Below are positions 23,994 through 33,329 of a stretch of DNA of 34,236 bases, in pieces. How positions within the stretch are numbered: position 1 is the first letter of the stretch; the number at the start of each line of letters is the position of its first letter. The stretch is from an uncultured Erysipelotrichaceae bacterium. Its GTDB lineage: Bacteria > Bacillota_I > Bacilli_A > RFN20 > CAG-826. Made by a program: the position numbers and the translations under genes. Where the stretch lies: positions 1 through 34,236 of the forward strand of contig CACYCS010000032.1 in NCBI GenBank assembly GCA_902773005.1. The letters run 5' to 3'. The notes under the pieces were generated by a model that saw only the letters and a program-made list of their open reading frames with translations, searched no databases and was not told the origin of the DNA.

Positions 23994-25295
23994 ATGATTT
24001 CACGGCCGAAGCATATTGAAGATACCAAGGGACTATTAGGACAACTACCGACAATCGACGCCCCCGTTCCCGATTTTCTTTATCTCGCGACCGATAACGC
24101 GAGGTGCAAGGGGGCGGAGATCTACGTAAAGGAGGGCGATCGCGTCCTGATGGGACAGAAGATCGGCCTTCGCCGCGCCGCGTTTTTCGAGCAGCCCATC
24201 CACGCGACTTGCTCGGGGATATATCTCGGCAAGGAAAAGCATTACCACCGTTCAGGAAAGCTCGTCGACTTCCTGAAGATTCAAAACGACCACCTCGACG
24301 AATGGGACCCTAGCCTCAAGGAAAGAAGCGACGAAGAGATCGCTAAGCTTAGCAAGGAAGATATCATCGAGATCCTTAAGGAATGCGCATCGGTTGGACT
24401 AGGCGGCTCTAGCTTCCCAACCTACATCAAAATGCAGGGTAAGCAACCCATTCATACGATTTTGATCAACGGCATCGAATGCGAACCCTATATCTCCGCG
24501 GACCATCGCCTGATGCTAGAAGACCCCGAATCCATCATCGGGGGCATCCGCATCCTCCAGCAGGCATTCTCCTGCAAGGATGCCCGCATCTGCGTGAAAT
24601 CGAAATACAGCGACCTCCGCCAAGTATATGGCGCCTTCTTGAAGCGTCCCGAGGCGGAAGGGATCTCGCTTTGCCCCGTCGGCAATTTCTATCCGCAGGG
24701 CTGGGAGATCGCGATGATCAAATCCGCGACCGGGATCGAAGTCCCTTCAGGCCACCTCCCTGGCGAATTTGGAATCGCGAACTTCAACGTCTCGACCGTC
24801 TCTGGCATCTACCAGGCGGTCAAATACAATCGCTCGGTTGTGGAAAGACTCGTTTCCGTGACTGGGGACGGCATCGCCTATCCCTCGAATTTCCGGGTAA
24901 GGGTAGGCACCCCACTAGAATATTTGTTGCAGGCCTGCGGCGGATTCGTCAAAGAAGAGGTGCCCAAGGTATTGATTCTAGGCGGCCCCATGATGGGCGC
25001 CTCAATCCCGTCTTCAGATTGCATCGTCACCAAAACGGTCACTAGCTGCATCGTGCTGAACGCGGAAGAAGTGAAGGAAGAGCCTTGCATCCGCTGCGGC
25101 TCTTGCGTCCTAAGCTGCCCAACTGGCCTAGAGCCGCAACAGATCATGCTGGCGGTCAAAGCAAACGATAAGGACCGCATCAAGGCACTTAACCCGCTCC
25201 GCTGCATCGAATGCGGATTATGCACCTATGTGTGCACGAGCAAGATCAGGGTTACCGATTTCGTGCGGAGGGCGAAGATACTCGCGAAGCTATGA
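23994..25295 (+). CDS. rnfC: Rnf electron transport complex subunit C
   Basis: 433-aa peripheral subunit that carries the NADH/FMN-type Gly-rich region (SVGLGGSSFPTYIKM about 134-148), an SLBB-like middle and two C-terminal 4Fe-4S motifs (CIRCGSCVLSCP near 364 and CIECGLCTYVCT near 404). In the Rnf complex it exchanges electrons with NAD(H) and passes them along the membrane chain. Length is usual. First gene of a ten-gene operon; its stop overlaps rnfD by 4 nt (ATGA 25292-25295). Confidence 0.95.
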   Translation: MISRPKHIEDTKGLLGQLPTIDAPVPDFLYLATDNARCKGAEIYVKEGDRVLMGQKIGLRRAAFFEQPIHATCSGIYLGKEKHYHRSGKLVDFLKIQNDHLDEWDPSLKERSDEEIAKLSKEDIIEILKECASVGLGGSSFPTYIKMQGKQPIHTILINGIECEPYISADHRLMLEDPESIIGGIRILQQAFSCKDARICVKSKYSDLRQVYGAFLKRPEAEGISLCPVGNFYPQGWEIAMIKSATGIEVPSGHLPGEFGIANFNVSTVSGIYQAVKYNRSVVERLVSVTGDGIAYPSNFRVRVGTPLEYLLQACGGFVKEEVPKVLILGGPMMGASIPSSDCIVTKTVTSCIVLNAEEVKEEPCIRCGSCVLSCPTGLEPQQIMLAVKANDKDRIKALNPLRCIECGLCTYVCTSKIRVTDFVRRAKILAKL

Positions 25296-26440
25296 TTACC
25301 ATCGTAAACGAAAAATCACCGCACCTGCGCCGCAAGGATTCCCTCGCCCGCATGCTTGCTGACGTCTTGATCGCCCTTGCGCCGACCATCGTTTTCGCGC
25401 TTGTCGTGTATCAATGGGACGCCGCGAGGAACCTCGCCATCAGCTGGGCGACCATGGTCGCTTCCGAAATCGTCTACGTTTTGATCGTCAACCGCATCAA
25501 ATATGACGGCAAGAAGCACACCTTCAAGGAACATCTTGCAGCCGGGTGGTCGAAACTCACGGTCAACAATATCTTGGCTCCAAGCGTGTCCGCCGCGATC
25601 TTCGCGCTCATCATGCCCGCCCGCACCAATCCCTATTTCATGATCTATCCCGCGCTAATCCTAGGAAGCCTATTCGCGATGATCATCGGCAAGCTCGTCT
25701 TCGGCGGGACGGGGAGCAACATCTTCAACCCCGCCGCCGTCGGCATGGTGTTCTCGAAGATCTGCTTCGGCTCGAAATACATCTATCAATCCCGCCCCTT
25801 CTTCATCGTAACTGGTGGCACGCCCCTCACGAATTCCATTGCCGAGGTCCCTGGCCTCAATAGTTTGACTGGCAAGTGGATGGGGATCAACGACGTTCCG
25901 CTAGAGGGCCTATTGTTTGGGCAAGTCGGAGGAACGATCGGCGAGGCGTTCAAGATCGCGATCCTCGTCGGCATGGTGTATCTATTGATCCGCAAGGCCG
26001 CGGATTGGCGGATCATCGTCTCGTATCTATCGACCTTCGTGCTCCTAATGGCCTTAGCAGGCGCCATCATCTGCACGAGGCACGATATCAATTTCTTCCG
26101 CTTCCTCGCGTTCCAATTGCTTTCTGGCGGGATGCTGTTCGGGGTCACGTTCATGCTCACCGACCCCGTCACTAGCCCCATCAATTCGCCAAGTAGGTTT
26201 ATCTATGGCTCGGCTGCGGCCATCATCACTGTCATCATTCGTCTATTCGGCGCACTGCCTGAAGGCATGGCGTATTCGATTCTCATCTGCAATATGCTCG
26301 CCCCGGCCCTAGACTACTACAAGTGGTCCTCGCCCAAGTGGAATAGGCGCTACGTCATCATCCTTTGCGTTGCCCTTGGTATCGCTCTTCTAGCGGTTGG
26401 GCTAGGCTTAGGATTCGGAGGGGAGGTCGTCGCAGCATGA
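25292..26440 (+). CDS. rnfD: Rnf complex membrane subunit D
   Basis: 382-aa integral membrane subunit (NQR2/RnfD family), the putative ion-translocating, FMN-carrying protein. The start is the ATG overlapping the rnfC stop, not the longer open frame. Hydrophobic helices fill most of the sequence; hallmark GGTGSNIFNPAAVG at about 147-160. FMN is normally attached to Thr in an (S/T)GAT motif: here the motif is VTGGTPLT with Thr177 as likely acceptor, so the Ala is replaced by Gly. Stop overlaps rnfG by 4 nt. Confidence 0.95.
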   Translation: MITIVNEKSPHLRRKDSLARMLADVLIALAPTIVFALVVYQWDAARNLAISWATMVASEIVYVLIVNRIKYDGKKHTFKEHLAAGWSKLTVNNILAPSVSAAIFALIMPARTNPYFMIYPALILGSLFAMIIGKLVFGGTGSNIFNPAAVGMVFSKICFGSKYIYQSRPFFIVTGGTPLTNSIAEVPGLNSLTGKWMGINDVPLEGLLFGQVGGTIGEAFKIAILVGMVYLLIRKAADWRIIVSYLSTFVLLMALAGAIICTRHDINFFRFLAFQLLSGGMLFGVTFMLTDPVTSPINSPSRFIYGSAAAIITVIIRLFGALPEGMAYSILICNMLAPALDYYKWSSPKWNRRYVIILCVALGIALLAVGLGLGFGGEVVAA

Positions 26441-26970
26441 ACGAATTCGCGAAGAAAGCCCTGAAGGTCGCCTTGATCCTCGCCTCGATCGGCGGGGTAA
26501 GCGCGATCACCGTTAGCGCGGTCAACCTTTTCACCGCCCCGAAGATCGAGGCGAACCGCAAAGAGAAGGAAAAGAAAGCCCTCAATGAGATCTTCCCTTC
26601 CGCCACAGTCGGAGAAGCGGTGGAAATCAAGCAAAACGCATACACGTCCCTACTGAAATATTGGCCAGTGCAAATCGGAAACGAGGATGCCCGCATCTAT
26701 AGCTGCTCTGGCAAAAACGGCTATGGCGCGGTCAGCCTACTCATCGGCGTCTATGGCGATTATAGCCTTGGACGGATGTCGATCATCGATAATACCGAGA
26801 CCTATGGGCAGACATTGAATCAGAATTACATCGCCCCGTATCAGTATTATGAAGACGGTGAGTCGCGACAAACTGCCCTCGATAACGTCACTTGCGGCGC
26901 CACCTATGGCGCAAAGCTCATCAAAGGCATGGTGGAGCAGGCCGTGGCCCACTACAAGGAGGCAAGATGA
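26437..26970 (+). CDS. rnfG: Rnf complex subunit G
   Basis: 177 aa, one N-terminal membrane helix (VALILASIGGVSAITVSAVN) and an extracytoplasmic FMN-binding domain. The covalent FMN motif is VTCGATYGAK with Thr156 as the expected flavin acceptor (family S/T-GAT; the residue before G is Cys here). ApbE encoded downstream is the enzyme that would load it. Ribosome site GGAGGGGAGG lies within rnfD; start at ATG 26437 overlaps the rnfD stop. Confidence 0.95.
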   Translation: MNEFAKKALKVALILASIGGVSAITVSAVNLFTAPKIEANRKEKEKKALNEIFPSATVGEAVEIKQNAYTSLLKYWPVQIGNEDARIYSCSGKNGYGAVSLLIGVYGDYSLGRMSIIDNTETYGQTLNQNYIAPYQYYEDGESRQTALDNVTCGATYGAKLIKGMVEQAVAHYKEAR

Positions 26971-27752
26971 TGGAAAAGAAGCGTTCCGCCCATTTCGAAT
27001 CGTTCGTCTCCGGCATCTGGAAGGAGAACCCGCTTTTCGTCTCGTTGCTCGGCCTTTGCCCAGCCCTTGCGGTCACGAAATCCATCGAGGCGGCTTTCGG
27101 AATGGGGATTTTGTTCACTTTGGTCCTAGTTTGCTCAAACGTCTTGGTCTCAGCCCTTCGCAAGGTGATTCCAGAAGAGGCGAAGACCCCGTGCGAAATC
27201 GTGATCATCGCGACCTTCGTCACCCTGGTCAAAATGCTCACTGAAGCCATCCTCCCAGAACTCTATAGCACCTTAGGCGTGTTCCTTTCGCTTCTAGTCG
27301 TCAATTGCATCGTATTGGGCCGAAGCGAGGCGTTCGCCATCAAAAACGGAGTGTTCGATTCCTTCCTCGATGGCATCGGCAATGGCATCGGCTACACGAT
27401 CGCCATCATGATCATCGCCCTCGTTAGGGAGGTGTTAGGGACCGGGATGATCACTTTCGGCGAGACATTCACCTTCATCGCTAGTGCCAATGGAGGGCAG
27501 CCGTTCCGCATCTACTTATTAACCGGCCCATCCCCGAGTCCGATCGAAGGGCCCGCGTGGGATTTCTCGATGTCGTTCTTCACTAACCCCGCCGGCGCAT
27601 TCTTAGTGCTAGGGGTCACCCTTGCCATCATCGCCGCGATTCGAAACGGCAAGGCGGAGAAAGCGAAAGTGGATGCTAGGCTCAAGGCGCTTGAAGAGAA
27701 AAAGAGCGCACCCGTGAACGCGAATTCAACGCCCAAGAAGGAGGAGAAGTGA
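26967..27752 (+). CDS. rnfE: Rnf complex membrane subunit E
   Basis: 261-aa membrane protein (Rnf/Nqr family, NqrD/RnfE). Shows ENPLFVSLLGLCPALAVTKS and VNCIVLGRSEAFA, conserved in RnfA/E with the Cys that help hold a membrane Fe-S centre. A charged tail of about 35 residues (KAEKAKVDARLKALEEKKS) extends the C-terminus, longer than in many members. A second ATG follows directly (ATGATG, 26967-26972). Confidence 0.95.
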   Translation: MMEKKRSAHFESFVSGIWKENPLFVSLLGLCPALAVTKSIEAAFGMGILFTLVLVCSNVLVSALRKVIPEEAKTPCEIVIIATFVTLVKMLTEAILPELYSTLGVFLSLLVVNCIVLGRSEAFAIKNGVFDSFLDGIGNGIGYTIAIMIIALVREVLGTGMITFGETFTFIASANGGQPFRIYLLTGPSPSPIEGPAWDFSMSFFTNPAGAFLVLGVTLAIIAAIRNGKAEKAKVDARLKALEEKKSAPVNANSTPKKEEK

Positions 27753-27754
27753 TC

Positions 27755-28345
27755 ATGCAATACCTCGTGGCATTCGTCTTAGGCATCCTCTCCTATGCCC
27801 TCATCAATAACGTCGTCCTCGTCCGCTTCTATGGCATCTGTTCCTTCGTAGGCGTCGGAAACAAGGTGAAATCGGCCGCAAGCATGGGGATCGCCGTGAG
27901 CTTCGTCATCATTTTGGCGACGCTCATCTGCTATCCGATCTACCATTTCATCCTGGTCCCTGCCGGCGTCCCATTCCTCGACACGATCACCTATATCCTT
28001 GTCATCGCTAGCTTAGTTCAGGTGGTGGGCCTATTCATCAAGAAGCATTCGCCCACCTTGTATCGGAACCTCGGCATCTATTTGCCCCTCATCACCACCA
28101 ACTGCGCCGTCCTAGGCGTCGTGACCGAGAATACCGACGCGGGCCTTGGCTTCTTGGAATCGCTCTCCAATGCCTTTGGGACCTCGGTCGGGTTCTTCAT
28201 CACGATCTTCCTGTTCGCTTGCATCAGGGTGAGACTCGAATCGAGCAATGCGCCGAAAGCGTTCAAAGGCATTCCCTTGGCGCTTATCTGCGCTGCCATC
28301 ATGGCAATGGCCTTCATGGGCCTAAGTGGGGTGATCAGCCTATGA
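27755..28345 (+). CDS. rnfA: Rnf complex membrane subunit A
   Basis: 196-aa partner of RnfE with the same fold. Motifs NNVVLVRFYGICSFVGVG near 22-39 and TTNCAVLGVVTEN near 110-122 carry the conserved Cys for the shared Fe-S centre. I choose ATG 27755 over GTG 27749, because AGGAGG (27739-27744) is too close to the GTG and well spaced from the ATG; with GTG the overlap would be GTGA. Confidence 0.93.
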   Translation: MQYLVAFVLGILSYALINNVVLVRFYGICSFVGVGNKVKSAASMGIAVSFVIILATLICYPIYHFILVPAGVPFLDTITYILVIASLVQVVGLFIKKHSPTLYRNLGIYLPLITTNCAVLGVVTENTDAGLGFLESLSNAFGTSVGFFITIFLFACIRVRLESSNAPKAFKGIPLALICAAIMAMAFMGLSGVISL

Positions 28346-28545
28346 ACCCGATTCTAGCGCTAGTTCTAGCGATTGGCATATTGGTGGTCCTAGTCGCCAC
28401 TTTCGTCATAAGCTTCATCGCCTATCGCCGTACCCCAGTTCCCAAAGGATGCGAGGATCTAGTGGCGAATAAGAAGAAATGCGATGGCTGCCAGGAGGCC
28501 CATTGCCCATTCGCGGAAGCATTAGGCAAGAAGGGGGGCGAATGA
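28342..28545 (+). CDS. Small Cys-rich membrane protein in Rnf operon
   Basis: 67 aa. One N-terminal membrane helix (ILALVLAIGILVVLVATFVI) followed by a basic stretch and a Cys cluster CEDLVANKKKCDGCQEAHCP (four Cys), then a Gly/Lys tail. It overlaps rnfA by 4 nt and is followed 2 nt later by the shortened RnfB. I do not recognise a named family. Location and Cys pattern suggest a Fe-S or metal site associated with Rnf, perhaps part of a split RnfB. Confidence 0.7.
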   Translation: MNPILALVLAIGILVVLVATFVISFIAYRRTPVPKGCEDLVANKKKCDGCQEAHCPFAEALGKKGGE

Positions 28546-28546
28546 T

Positions 28547-28873
28547 ATGGATCCCATGACGATACTTTACGCATTCCTGATTTTAGCAGGCGTCGCCTTA
28601 TTGTTTGGCTTTTTGCTTGCAGTTGCAGCAAAGATCTTCTACGTCAAGGAGGACGAGAGGATCGGGGCGGTCGAGAAGATGCTCCCCAATTACAATTGCG
28701 GCTCCTGCGGATACGCTGGCTGCCACGAGATGGCCGAAGCGATCGTAAGCGGCAAAGAAAAGAAATTGTCCAAGTGCAAGCCGGGGAAGAAGGATAAGAA
28801 CTTCGACCCGATCATCGCCTATATGGATGAGCATCCCGACGAAGACGGCGCCAAGCACGTCCCGACGGTATGA
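28547..28873 (+). CDS. rnfB: Shortened RnfB with a single Fe-S domain
   Basis: 108 aa. An N-terminal membrane helix (about 5-29) is followed by the RnfB Fe-S domain: PNYNCGSCGYAGCHEMAEAI and KLSKCKPG. Canonical RnfB continues with two or more ferredoxin-type 4Fe-4S clusters that take electrons from ferredoxin and is usually 180-350 aa. Here the protein ends soon after the first domain, with an acidic tail (MDEHPDEDGAKHVPTV). The stop overlaps the apbE start (ATGA 28870-28873), so there is no room for a lost end: the short form is the intact gene. Confidence 0.88.
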   Translation: MDPMTILYAFLILAGVALLFGFLLAVAAKIFYVKEDERIGAVEKMLPNYNCGSCGYAGCHEMAEAIVSGKEKKLSKCKPGKKDKNFDPIIAYMDEHPDEDGAKHVPTV

Positions 28874-29838
28874 AGCGCTTGCCCCTAATCGCCATATTTG
28901 CTTTTGCTGTGTCTTGTGCGCCGCTACTGTCCTCTTGCGAGAATCAAGGCGGAAGCGCGACCTCCTATGGCTTCGATACCCTTTGGACGATCGACCTATA
29001 CGAAGGGAGCCAATCCGATTGCGATCACATCAAGAATCTGATCGCCGATGTTTCTGACACTTTGGATCCATACAAATCTCATTCCCCGTTAGCGAAGCTC
29101 AACGCAAATCGAACCATCGAGATGAACGATACCCTAAAAGAAGCGTTATCTATTTCGACGAAGCTTCAAGAAGAGACGCAAGGCGCGTTCAATCCATTCA
29201 TGCTGGAACTCAATGACGCCTGGAAGCAAAACCTAGCCCAAGGAAAAGCCCTAGAACGGGATGAGGTGCATAGCCTTTTAGACAAAATAGCAGGGACGTG
29301 CATCGAGTTTTCCCTAGATTCCATTCGGCTGGAAGGGCAGGGGAGCATCGATTTAGGGGCAATCGGGAAAGGCTATTGCATGGATTTGATCGCGCGTTAC
29401 CTCAAGGAGAAGTCCATCAAGGCCTATCGCATCTCGGGCGGAAGGTCGAGCTTGCTTCTTGGTTCATCGGGGAACGCGGCAATACAAGCCTACAACATCA
29501 TTCCCGAAGATTATCCAACTCATTCTTTCAAAGCCATCGAATGCGGGATATCGACGAGCTCGATCTCGCAGCAGCGTTATGAGATCGACGGCTTCACTTA
29601 CTCCCACATCGTGAATCCGTTCACCGGCGAAGCGCGTCCGCAATACAAGATGACGCTTGCTAGGCTCAAATTCGATGACATGTCCCCCTTCGATTTTCCA
29701 AATAGCATGCTAGATGCCTCGACGACGGCTTTCTTTTCGATGGGGGTCGACGAGATTTCGTCGTATTGCAGCCAAAGGCATCTTGATTACATCGTCGGCG
29801 GCGAAGATGGGATCTTAAGGAATTCGCTTGGCCTATGA
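28870..29838 (+). CDS. apbE: FAD:protein FMN transferase, lipoprotein
   Basis: 322-aa ApbE that uses FAD and Mg to attach FMN to Thr of RnfD and RnfG outside the membrane. Lipobox SSC near residue 22. Family motifs present: SIDLGAIGKGYCMD near 159-172, GGRSSLLLG near 195-203, SHIVNPFTG at 245-253, and D282-A-S-T-T-AFFSMG. Length usual. Encoded directly after rnfB and before the NusG-II gene, with 4-nt overlaps on both sides. Confidence 0.95.
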   Translation: MKRLPLIAIFAFAVSCAPLLSSCENQGGSATSYGFDTLWTIDLYEGSQSDCDHIKNLIADVSDTLDPYKSHSPLAKLNANRTIEMNDTLKEALSISTKLQEETQGAFNPFMLELNDAWKQNLAQGKALERDEVHSLLDKIAGTCIEFSLDSIRLEGQGSIDLGAIGKGYCMDLIARYLKEKSIKAYRISGGRSSLLLGSSGNAAIQAYNIIPEDYPTHSFKAIECGISTSSISQQRYEIDGFTYSHIVNPFTGEARPQYKMTLARLKFDDMSPFDFPNSMLDASTTAFFSMGVDEISSYCSQRHLDYIVGGEDGILRNSLGL

Positions 29839-30227
29839 AGGAATTCGCGAAGAAGCATAAGGCCGATCTTATCATCTTTGGCTGCGTGTTGGCTCTTTCC
29901 CTTGGCGGACTAATTCCGTTTTTCATTTATAGGAATTCGAATCGAAACGGCCTAATCGCCTCTATTTACCGACAGGGGGAGCTACTACTTAAGATCGATC
30001 TCGCGGAGGAAAAAGAAGAAAGGACGTTTGAGATAGAGGGGACAAAGTCGAAGATGGAAATCGCAGTCAGAAGGAACGCGATCAAGGTCGCCCACTCGGA
30101 TTGCCCAACCCAATATTGCGTCCATATGGATTACGTGAGTTCGCCAGGGTTACCGATCGTATGCGCCTATAATGGCGTGTCCATCGTTTTGGAGGGCGGG
30201 GATTCTTCCTCGATCGTCGTCGGATGA
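29835..30227 (+). CDS. NusG domain II protein (EetA-like)
   Basis: 130 aa, one N-terminal membrane helix (LIIFGCVLALSLGGLIPFFI, about 12-31) and an outward NusG-II domain with the family's Cys pattern HSDCPTQYCVHMDYVSSPG and IVCAYN. This domain is found with ApbE and with the Gx-transporter-like gene in redox operons, including the Listeria-type EetA/EetB pair for extracellular electron transfer. Function is not proven. Overlaps both neighbours by 4 nt. Confidence 0.85.
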   Translation: MKEFAKKHKADLIIFGCVLALSLGGLIPFFIYRNSNRNGLIASIYRQGELLLKIDLAEEKEERTFEIEGTKSKMEIAVRRNAIKVAHSDCPTQYCVHMDYVSSPGLPIVCAYNGVSIVLEGGDSSSIVVG

Positions 30228-30808
30228 ATTGGATTGGCGGATTGCTCATTATTGCGGCTACGCTTTTCACCGTTTTCGCACTCACGCCCCTGCTGAATTC
30301 GTTTTCTTTCACGAATAAGAAGATCGCGCGATTTGGCGTGTTCGCTTCGCTTTCAATCGCCCTTGGCATCGCCGAGAGCTTCTTGCCTGACTTCTTGCTG
30401 CCTGGCATGAAGATCGGCCTCCCGAATCTTGCGATCCTCATCTTGCTGTATTTAAATGGCTTCTTCCCGGCGCTAGTCGTTAGCCTAGTTAGGGTAGTGG
30501 TCGTGAGTCTGCTCCGGGGAAGCTTTCTTGCGATGGGCGGGTGGATGTCTTTGGCCGGAGCGCTTGCCTCAATCCTAGCGATGGCCATCATCAAGAAGGC
30601 TTTTAAGAGCGCAACTCCCGTTGGGGTTTCGCTGATCGGCAGCGTTTTCCATGTCTCTGCTCAAATCGCGGTCGCGGTGGCCTACATTGGAAGCGCAGCC
30701 ATCTTGTATTATTTGCCATTCATGGGTTTACTTGCCATCGTATCGGGGCTTGCGGTTGGGCTTGTTGACGCGCGGATTCTCAAGATACTCTCGCGAATCG
30801 GCAACTGA
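30224..30808 (+). CDS. Gx transporter-family membrane protein (EetB-like)
   Basis: 194-aa membrane protein of the family often named heptaprenyl diphosphate synthase component I, now called Gx transporter family. Hydrophobic throughout; key part is LPGMKIGLPNLAILILLYLN (about 64-83) and RVVVVSLLRGSFL. Related to ECF S-components, so quinone or flavin transport is proposed for the group. Last gene of the Rnf operon. The annotated name prenyl synthase is likely misleading here, as no polyprenyl synthase catalytic motif is present. Confidence 0.85.
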   Translation: MNWIGGLLIIAATLFTVFALTPLLNSFSFTNKKIARFGVFASLSIALGIAESFLPDFLLPGMKIGLPNLAILILLYLNGFFPALVVSLVRVVVVSLLRGSFLAMGGWMSLAGALASILAMAIIKKAFKSATPVGVSLIGSVFHVSAQIAVAVAYIGSAAILYYLPFMGLLAIVSGLAVGLVDARILKILSRIGN

Positions 30809-30883: not shown

Positions 30884-30915
30884 GGGCTGGAACTCAAAGG
30901 AGAAATTCAGTTTCC

Positions 30916-31500
30916 ATGAAACAAAACGGACGAAACGTCAAAGACGAGATAGCCGACGCTTTTGTGACCGAGTTCAATCGCAACGGTCCTAAACTCACGC
31001 TCGACGGCGTGACCGCTATCATCCACATTTCTAAGAAGACGATCTACAAGTATTTCCAGTCGAAGCAGGATATCTATCGCTATATCCTTGGCAAGACAAC
31101 CGCCTACGTCGAAGAGAAGCAGCGCGAGATCCGCGATAACCCCGATCTCCCGCTTCGGGAGAAGATCGAGAAGATCATCACGATCACCACGCCCTATGAA
31201 ATTCAGCTCGACGTCGCTCGCATCCCCGAATTGAAGGAAGCTGAGCCCGAGGTTTTCGCCGAAATCGACGCCGCATTCCACGTCCAGTGGGAAGCGGTGC
31301 GCGATGTGCTGGAGGAGGCGATCAGCAAAGGAGTGGTCCGCACGAGCTGCACCCCGAACTTCATCATCACCGTGCTTTATGCCTCGATGACCGATTTCCT
31401 TCGCGAGCCCTTCCTCCGCAGCGAATCCCTTTCTTACACCGAGGCCGTCCATCGCTTGGCAGACCTGGTCCTCAACGGGATCTTCGCCCAAGACAATTAG
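30916..31500 (+). CDS. TetR-family transcriptional regulator
   Basis: 194 aa. The N-terminal TetR helix-turn-helix is LDGVTAIIHISKKTIYKYFQ (about 29-48); the C-terminal helical ligand-binding part is acidic and variable. I start at ATG 30916 because the promoter lies at 30855-30883; AAAGGAGA (30896-30903) is the ribosome site, somewhat far. It is encoded before the GPH symporter on the same strand and may regulate it; the ligand is unknown. Confidence 0.88.
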   Translation: MKQNGRNVKDEIADAFVTEFNRNGPKLTLDGVTAIIHISKKTIYKYFQSKQDIYRYILGKTTAYVEEKQREIRDNPDLPLREKIEKIITITTPYEIQLDVARIPELKEAEPEVFAEIDAAFHVQWEAVRDVLEEAISKGVVRTSCTPNFIITVLYASMTDFLREPFLRSESLSYTEAVHRLADLVLNGIFAQDN

Positions 31501-31610
31501 CTAATTTAGGCGTGTATCGCCTAGCAATACCTCATCCTGCCGATTTCGGCCGCCGTTCCGGCGCATCATCTACGCAAAAGCGCATGCAGTCCCGCGCCAC
31601 GATGGGCTGC

Positions 31611-31635
31611 GATCCCCATTAGGGTAGTGGGGGTC
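31611..31635 (+). promoter_or_regulatory. Hairpin in leader of symporter gene
   Basis: GATCCCCA (31611-31618) pairs with TGGGGGTC (31628-31635, one G-U) over a 9-nt loop, 12 nt before the ribosome site of the symporter. It lacks a T tract; it may be an operator or translational control element. Confidence 0.35.
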
Positions 31636-31661
31636 AAAGGCGCAGCGAAAAGGAGGTTACT

Positions 31662-33329
31662 ATGTCAACCAACACCAATGCCTTTACAGGCGATAAGGTT
31701 CCAACGCTGACGAAGATCCTGTTCCCGTGGTCAGGTATCTTCAGAGACGCTTGCTACGCCCTCGTCGGAACCTTCTTACTACAGTACGCCCTGACCGCCG
31801 GCGTGCTCTCGTCCGAAGGAGCTGCCTTCACGAGCCAATATGGCGTCATTACCACCGCGATGTTCATCGCCCTTGTGTGGGATGGCATCAACGACCCGAT
31901 CATGGGATTCATCCTTGAGAAATGCCACTTCAAGGCCGGCAAATTCCGTCCTTGGATCGCACTAGGAGCGATCGGCAATGGCCTCGTCGTAATGCTCATG
32001 TTCCTTCTCCCGATGGTCTTCACCGGCCTCCGCGGATGGGGATACGTCGCGTTCATGATCATCATGTACATCCTCTGGGATACCTGCTTCACCATGAACG
32101 ACATCGGCTACTGGTCGATGCTCCCAGCTCTCACTAACGACCCCAAGACCAGAGCGACCCTCACCACCCATACGGCCATCGCCGCCTCGATCGGTACCTT
32201 CATCATGAACATCGCCATGTTCTTGCTGCCGGGCCTCATCAAGGCTTCCACCATCCAGATCTACGCCTTCGCGGGCATCGCGATCGCCGCGCTCTTCCTC
32301 GCCTCTCAGCTCATCGTCTTCTTCCTCTGCAAAGAGAAGGTGCGCGATGCGAAGCAAGAGGAAGTTTCGGAAAAGTCCTCCATTCTTGACTTGTTCCGCG
32401 TCGTCGGAAAGAACAAAGAGCTGCTCGTCGCGGCCATCGCGATGTTCCTCTATTACTTCGCTTCCTTCATCCTCACCGGCATCGGCCAGAACTACTTCTA
32501 CATGGTCTATGGCTATGGCGGCGGAAAAGGCGGCATGGTCGCCACCGCGATCAGCGCCTTCTATGTCATCGGCACCGTGGCCGCGCAGGCCTTCTTCCCG
32601 ATGATGGCGAAGCGGATGCCGAAGCAAAAGATATTGCTCATCTCCACGATCGTCGTCCTCGCTTCTTACCTCGCCTTCTTCTTGATCGCCTTCCCGGTCT
32701 TTGGGGAACACCCGCTTGCTTACGCTGATCCAGGAGACGGCTCCAACATGTTCTGGGTCTTCACCGGAACCATGCCGCTTCTATATGTCCTCTGCGTCCT
32801 CTTCTTCGGCGCTTCGGGCATCTTCTACCTCACCTTGCTTGTCATGTTCCAGGATGCCATCGACTATGGCGAATGGAAGAATGGCGAGCGCAAAGAGTCC
32901 ATCTGCTTTGCCTGGCGTCCGCTTGACGTGAAACTAGCTTCCGGCTTCAACAGGATCCTCCAGTTCATCGTCTTCGCCGCTACTGGCACCTCGGCCTTCA
33001 TCACCGCCGTCTCGAACTCCGAAGGCACTTACTATGCCGAACTCGCGGAAGGGGTTAATAAAGAGACCGCTACCGCGACCCGCGACGTCGCGATCGAAAC
33101 CGCAAGGGAGGGCGTCGAAAGATGGCAGCTCGTCGTATTCGGAATCATCGTCATCGGCGTCATCATCATCCTCTTCCTCGCCGCATTCATCCTTCTCCGC
33201 ACCAAATACCACATCGATGAGAAGATGGAAGCGGACATCGTCAAAGAGCTTGAGGCGCGCCATGAACAGAACGCGAAACTCATCGCCGAAGGCCAGCCCG
33301 CTGAACCCGTCGAAGACGCTCTTAGCTAA
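31662..33329 (+). CDS. GPH-family sugar:cation symporter
   Basis: 555-aa MFS-type transporter of the glycoside-pentoside-hexuronide group (MelB-like). Hallmark block DGINDPIMGFILEK followed by GKFRPWI at about residues 71-93; N-terminal KILFPWSGIFRDACYAL and the RATLTTHTAIAASIG loop also fit. Hydrophobic helices fill most of it; the C-terminal ~45 residues are charged and cytoplasmic. Takes up a glycoside or hexuronide with Na+ or H+; the exact sugar is unknown. Ribosome site AAAGGAGG. No sugar-hydrolase gene is next to it in the window. Confidence 0.92.
   Translation: MSTNTNAFTGDKVPTLTKILFPWSGIFRDACYALVGTFLLQYALTAGVLSSEGAAFTSQYGVITTAMFIALVWDGINDPIMGFILEKCHFKAGKFRPWIALGAIGNGLVVMLMFLLPMVFTGLRGWGYVAFMIIMYILWDTCFTMNDIGYWSMLPALTNDPKTRATLTTHTAIAASIGTFIMNIAMFLLPGLIKASTIQIYAFAGIAIAALFLASQLIVFFLCKEKVRDAKQEEVSEKSSILDLFRVVGKNKELLVAAIAMFLYYFASFILTGIGQNYFYMVYGYGGGKGGMVATAISAFYVIGTVAAQAFFPMMAKRMPKQKILLISTIVVLASYLAFFLIAFPVFGEHPLAYADPGDGSNMFWVFTGTMPLLYVLCVLFFGASGIFYLTLLVMFQDAIDYGEWKNGERKESICFAWRPLDVKLASGFNRILQFIVFAATGTSAFITAVSNSEGTYYAELAEGVNKETATATRDVAIETAREGVERWQLVVFGIIVIGVIIILFLAAFILLRTKYHIDEKMEADIVKELEARHEQNAKLIAEGQPAEPVEDALS

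Follow-up and report, generated by a model that had tools for sequence, protein, structure and literature searches.

The window, by which we mean the whole 34,236-nucleotide stretch of DNA from an uncultured Erysipelotrichaceae bacterium that was analysed here, carries ten consecutive forward-strand genes at positions 23994-30808. These are rnfC, rnfD, rnfG, rnfE, rnfA, a gene for a 67-amino-acid membrane protein, a short rnfB, apbE, a NusG_II gene and a PF07456 gene. The NADH-side subunit RnfC (23994-25295) has two [4Fe-4S] motifs and matches TIGR01945 (2.7e-106) together with the Complex1_51K, SLBB and Fer4 families. It is followed by RnfD (25292-26440; PF03116, 4.2e-69), in which a motif alignment places TGGTPLT at the flavinylation-motif position, and by RnfG (26437-26970), a single domain of 177 amino acids with a flavinylation-like motif, TCGAT. 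RnfG matches TIGR01947 (7.9e-8) and, weakly and below the cut-off, FMN_bind (0.015). RnfE (26967-27752; PF02508, 1.5e-60) and RnfA (27749-28345; TIGR01943, 1e-64) each show both of their [2Fe-2S] cysteines in the aligned columns, and the core of the complex consists of RnfC, D, G, E and A with all four of these cysteines.

The remaining genes begin with the small membrane protein (28342-28545), which an alignment of 32 members shows to have one helix and then a C-x2-C-x4-C motif. Next is a mini-RnfB of 108 amino acids (28547-28873), a membrane helix plus one [4Fe-4S] domain, with PF04060 (4.5e-13) as its sole family match. The operon ends with an ApbE flavin transferase with a lipoprotein-like N-terminus (28870-29838; PF02424, 9.8e-35), an EetA-like NusG_II protein (29835-30227; PF07009, 4.1e-21) and an EetB-like ECF-S subunit, a predicted FAD exporter (30224-30808; PF07456, Hpre_diP_synt_I/Gx, 3e-31, over the cut-off). 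A sequence-only reading of this DNA had placed an ApbE, NusG-II and Gx-transporter trio at the end of an Rnf operon; its coordinates are right and the three family matches are clear. The same reading held that all ten genes overlap. This is correct for eight of the nine junctions, each with a 4-nucleotide overlap, but the small-protein gene and rnfB lie 1 nucleotide apart. With eight overlaps and a single 1-nucleotide gap, one transcript is very likely. What had been overlooked is the truncation of RnfB, and that the tenth gene encodes a small, cysteine-rich membrane protein. On the 3′ side of the operon, at 30913-33329, lie a TetR-like regulator and an MFS-type transporter, both named from the sequence and not from a family search; a similar regulator also follows the operon in two other loci (L040 and L041).

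In Listeria, EetB is the ECF-S subunit of a FAD exporter and binds FAD, PplA is not flavinylated when EetB is missing, and deletion of eetA gives no phenotype in extracellular electron transfer (EET) (Rivera-Lugo et al. 2023, PMC9973259). In its current annotation, Listeria eetB encodes the FAD exporter subunit of a flavinylation system. A search of the PDB with the sequence of the window's EetB gave no matches. Its AlphaFold model is of low confidence (mean pLDDT 63.7, built from a two-sequence alignment). Rows 1-13 of the Foldseek results for this model are all ECF S-components, headed by TmRibU 5kbw with a probability of 1.00 and TM-scores of 0.63/0.71, at an E-value of only 0.018. VIA-align gives a Z-score of 13.9 to RibU 3p5n, with the first non-ECF row at 9.4. 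The genome also has one ECF-T gene (CbiQ, 1.4e-39), adjoined by two ABC ATPases; this ECF-T/A/A′ set is not linked to the rnf operon and may serve vitamin import only. The modelled fold is consistent with a FAD exporter, and that is the function we predict for the window's EetB.

On the published activities of EetB and ApbE, the operon could work as follows. EetB, partnered by ECF-T and ATPase subunits whose genes lie elsewhere in the genome, would move FAD outward, with EetA as its putative accessory. The lipoprotein ApbE would then use the exported FAD for the covalent attachment of FMN to RnfG and RnfD, outside the membrane. Electrons would enter the complex via the minimal RnfB, which consists of the membrane-tethered [4Fe-4S] domain only. 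A PDB search with EetA returned NusG_II-like proteins (named only hypothetical, Lin0431 or uncharacterized) and, weakly, some alcohol dehydrogenases. A natural EetB-EetA fusion is seen in another locus (L188:7459-8406), where a PF07456-type protein of 315 amino acids has a C-terminal part that resembles the NusG_II domain and coincides with a NusG_II profile match.

The trio is found beside Rnf well beyond this genome. Of 196 genomes sampled across the window's order, 111 have NusG_II, and from these 111 we hand-picked 60 loci for spread and searched them with profiles made from the window's proteins. The eetA and eetB genes lie beside rnf genes in 48 of the 60, so the association of the trio with Rnf is not due to chance; apbE-eetA-eetB directly follows rnfB in 42 of 49 loci, the window counted. 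This arrangement is known, and its role in flavin supply is already published for other Firmicutes: in the eetB-apbE-Rnf clusters of Rivera-Lugo et al. (2023, PMC9973259), ApbE, EetA and EetB adjoin Rnf as they do here, and the model proposed there, as for the window, is FAD export for the flavinylation of Rnf subunits. The same study counts 2,169 genomes in which eetB is colocalised with apbE; Rnf and EET systems are the most frequent company of eetB, which occurs with Rnf in 572 Clostridia genomes. The emphasis of that paper is on Clostridia, and in the text consulted it mentions neither a short RnfB nor a small CxxC protein like those of the window. An rnfCDGEAB operon is also reported in the Peloplasma paper.

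These results also bear on whether EetA and EetB have anything to do with Rnf at all. EetB could be an S-component for another substrate, with the pair merely co-transcribed, and there are points that fit this: the Pfam name of PF07456 is heptaprenyl diphosphate synthase component I, the FAD specificity of the window's EetB is a prediction, and 12 of the 60 order loci have eetAB with no rnf genes nearby, although contig ends cut some of these loci short. The order-wide linkage to both rnf and apbE, the 4-nucleotide overlaps, RibU as the best fold match and the published binding of FAD by EetB (PMC9973259) all argue against it, and we regard an unrelated EetA/EetB pair as very improbable indeed.

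Candidate flavinylation sites are kept in the alignments, TCGAT in RnfG and TGGTPLT in RnfD. The flavinylation motif has been given as [S/T]GA[S/T] (Meheust et al. 2021, PMC8238504), and both of the window's motifs depart from it, by the cysteine in RnfG and by GGT in RnfD. The cysteine is not peculiar to the window, as it stands before GAT in place of the usual serine or threonine in 29 of 47 aligned short RnfG sequences. RnfD itself varies in length within our collection: it reaches 504-996 amino acids in ten loci (L068, L074, L076, L077, L079, L082, L089, L091, L092 and L093), and in the two that were scanned, L091 and L092, the Pfam match covers only the first ~340 residues, with none in the extension.

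The sequence-only reading also considered that the operon could mean flavin transfer to surface acceptors, as in flavin-based EET. For comparison we used three annotated EET loci, one from Listeria and one from each of two Enterococcus species (L190, L191 and L194). Like the window, these have EetA, EetB and an ApbE in one locus. They also have PplA, a FAD-dependent oxidoreductase and a polyprenyl synthetase, and the Enterococcus ones have menA genes, whereas the window has Rnf instead. Genes for PplA, an Ndh2-like protein or (demethyl)menaquinone synthesis are absent from the ten-gene operon, and none was recognised by eye in the neighbouring frames. A search of the genome, which is 82% complete, with FMN_bind gave one match only, RnfG itself, below the family cut-off; a UbiA prenyltransferase was likewise not found in it, by a search that was positive in 14 of 14 control genomes. 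Given a fragmented assembly at this level of completeness, the absence of PplA and UbiA is only suggestive, and since RnfG itself falls under the FMN_bind cut-off, a divergent surface flavoprotein could be missed. Within the window's class we identified one EET-like locus (L153), which has a 729-amino-acid NADH dehydrogenase-like protein.

In the EetB tree (90 rows; L048, with a partial EetB, was left out) the four EET rows form one clade (100/99; 200/200 bootstrap trees) with the window outside it, inside a set of 43 rows (97/97), of which 38 are Rnf-linked and 5 are of other kinds. Forcing the window and the EET rows into one EetB clade is rejected (p-AU 0.0034). The Rnf label is scattered over the tree, with 15 changes rather than one clade, so this tree splits EET from the rest but does not set Rnf apart from all else. 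The EetA tree, which is short of columns, is poorly resolved; the EET rows again form one clade (100/98), and among the rows listed the window and L048 form a pair (96/73) within a group of three, all of them Rnf-linked (99/66). The refutation test set by the sequence-only reading itself goes against EET, because the window's EetB groups with Rnf-linked and other non-EET rows and not with the EET clade. Nor can EetA and EetB be read as a sign of EET in the first place, given that the Listeria eetA deletion has no EET phenotype and that EetB is a FAD exporter and not an electron carrier (PMC9973259). A role for the pair as EET electron carriers was dropped on this published function and on the tree. 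Flavin transfer to surface acceptors is not supported for the window's genome, and the trio is not evidence of extracellular electron transfer there.

A rival reading is a true Rnf-EET hybrid, in which electrons from RnfG would also reach extracellular acceptors via flavins, with EetA and EetB as EET parts. Support for it comes from relatives. RnfG has 353-515 amino acids in 6 of 15 same-genus loci (L034, L036, L041, L042, L043 and L044), some with at least two flavinylation-like motifs; multi-flavinylated RnfGs have been proposed to feed extracytosolic acceptors (PMC8238504); and relatives without the ferredoxin half of the complex, described below, still have RnfC/D/G-ApbE-EetAB. The window's own RnfG is a short, single domain, however, and the missing EET genes at the locus, the lone FMN_bind match, the UbiA search that found none in the genome and the position of its EetB outside the EET clade count against a hybrid as well. 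We judge it improbable, less so than an unrelated EetA/EetB pair. Flavin supply for RnfD and RnfG, the simpler of the two meanings first proposed for the trio, is well supported by the RibU-like model of EetB, the ECF partners, the linkage to rnf, the motifs and the tree. We therefore consider it highly probable that the trio serves this Rnf complex as its cofactor-supply module, for FAD export and the flavinylation of RnfG and RnfD, and that the complex is otherwise complete, with a minimal RnfB.

This RnfB is the unusual part of the operon. The solved Rnf complexes, of Clostridium tetanomorphum and others, have the same subunits C, D, G, E and A and the same four [2Fe-2S] cysteines, and their RnfB shares the membrane helix and the first [4Fe-4S] domain with the mini-RnfB. 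However, only the first ~75 residues of the window's RnfB align to the solved chains of 174, 274 and 333 amino acids, and the C-terminal ferredoxin-type domain, on which ferredoxin docks, is missing. Structurally characterised RnfB proteins carry two to seven [4Fe-4S] clusters in this domain according to a 2025 review (PMC12174285); the mini-RnfB carries none there. A frameshift or assembly error was dropped as an explanation because of the uniform length of the protein: RnfB is short in 90 of 93 distinct loci of the order and class, with 48-60 amino acids, 4-5 of them cysteines, after the first FeS cysteine. The three long ones all belong to one family (f12). These 93 loci are not a random sample, as the 30 class loci are the 30 best-scoring ones, and five duplicates (L032, L099, L101, L112 and L119) were dropped before the count. 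Further class genomes outside the 93 have longer RnfB frames (183-194 amino acids in family f14, 279 in f12), so long RnfB may be commoner in the class than 3 in 93. A full second RnfB elsewhere in the genome was also looked for and set aside: the only other PF04060 match lies inside a 586-amino-acid frame on another contig (G000:C128:23339-23428).

A pyruvate:ferredoxin oxidoreductase is present in the window's genome, in two pieces, so a ferredoxin donor exists. The [2Fe-2S] path is also widely kept; in a survey of 91 loci, all four RnfA/E cysteines are present in 87, two (L100 and L117) are gapped at a single RnfE position, and two have none of the four. Since RnfB here is a membrane-tethered [4Fe-4S] domain only, soluble ferredoxin probably docks directly on that domain. 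Structurally known Rnf complexes take ferredoxin electrons via the multi-cluster RnfB domain, with which this stub contrasts; a widespread Rnf without the domain would show that a flexible single-cluster domain suffices, and would offer a small system for testing this.

Alternatively, the mini-RnfB may need a partner in place of its ferredoxin domain, either a separate 2[4Fe-4S] protein or the small CxxC protein, an idea that is compatible with the cofactor-supply reading of the trio. The small protein directly precedes rnfB in 82 of the 93 loci and is absent from all three long-RnfB loci, and its cysteines C47, C50 and C55 are invariant in the alignment of 32, with C37 nearly so. On the other hand, the operon has no ferredoxin gene, and 8 of the 90 short-RnfB loci have no detectable copy of the small protein, which is therefore not obligatory. 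The resemblance of the small protein is to FeoB-associated cysteine-rich proteins and is weak: PF12669 matches 14 of the 32 members, at best with 8e-4, and the listed matches of the window's own copy do not include it. We think a required partner possible but rather doubtful. A PDB search with the small-protein profile returned only unrelated membrane helices. An identity as NqrM was dropped for want of PF04400 support; in the window's own genome this short profile found nothing beyond a 12-bit match located on another contig, and it gave no match over the cut-off in the control genomes either. A guess, taken by analogy from the review's account of NqrM (PMC12174285), is that the small protein may deliver iron or a cluster to RnfA/E.

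Some relatives have gone further. Seven loci (L178, L179 and L196-L200; genera g85, g145 and g162 of family f16) have neither rnfB nor the small protein, and retain rnfC, rnfD, two rnfG, rnfE, rnfA, apbE, eetA and eetB. In all seven, other residues or gaps stand at the positions of the four [2Fe-2S] cysteines in RnfA and RnfE, whereas the four cysteines are intact in all eight RnfB-bearing loci of families f16 and f21 aligned alongside; the RnfC cluster cysteines are retained in each of the six RnfB-less loci aligned. PF04060 is found in none of the seven whole genomes (96-99% complete) and is present in both controls. Pyruvate:ferredoxin oxidoreductase is likewise absent from all seven, whereas all 12 of the RnfB-bearing comparators, among them the window's genome, have it. 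The ferredoxin-entry half is lost in a coordinated way in these relatives. The seven are close kin, which implies one or two loss events and not seven; the RnfB-less state requires two changes on the RnfD tree, so the loss in L200 may have happened independently, as a second event. Neither a truncated nor a missing RnfB was found reported in the open-access literature, a scope that takes in few subscription papers.

Coordinated loss of this kind, read from gene content, suggests that in the RnfB-less species the half leading from NADH through RnfC and RnfD to RnfG may work alone, served by its flavin supply. In these species nature has in effect knocked out one half of the pump, which raises the questions of whether the RnfC-D-G half can run by itself as an outward NADH oxidase and of what then becomes of energy conservation. 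A tentative scenario, which we put forward as somewhat short of an even chance, is that Rnf has been dismantled from the ferredoxin side in this class. RnfB would first have shrunk to a single-cluster stub. At least one lineage, and perhaps a second, would then have shed RnfB together with its small CxxC partner, the RnfA/E [2Fe-2S] ligands and pyruvate:ferredoxin oxidoreductase, leaving RnfC-D-G-G′ and ApbE-EetA-EetB as a one-way machine from NADH to an outer flavin. The operon of the window would be an intermediate stage, in which the trio sustains the outer flavin half. Comparable one-way systems related to NQR and RNF have been described (Meheust et al. 2021, PMC8238504), and the RnfB-less relatives are similar in that one electron path to an outer flavoprotein is kept. 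As reported there, those systems are NqrB/RnfD-NqrF fusions, mainly from Actinobacteria and the candidate phyla radiation; unlike them, the RnfB-less relatives keep RnfC, RnfD, two RnfG and cysteine-less forms of RnfE and RnfA.
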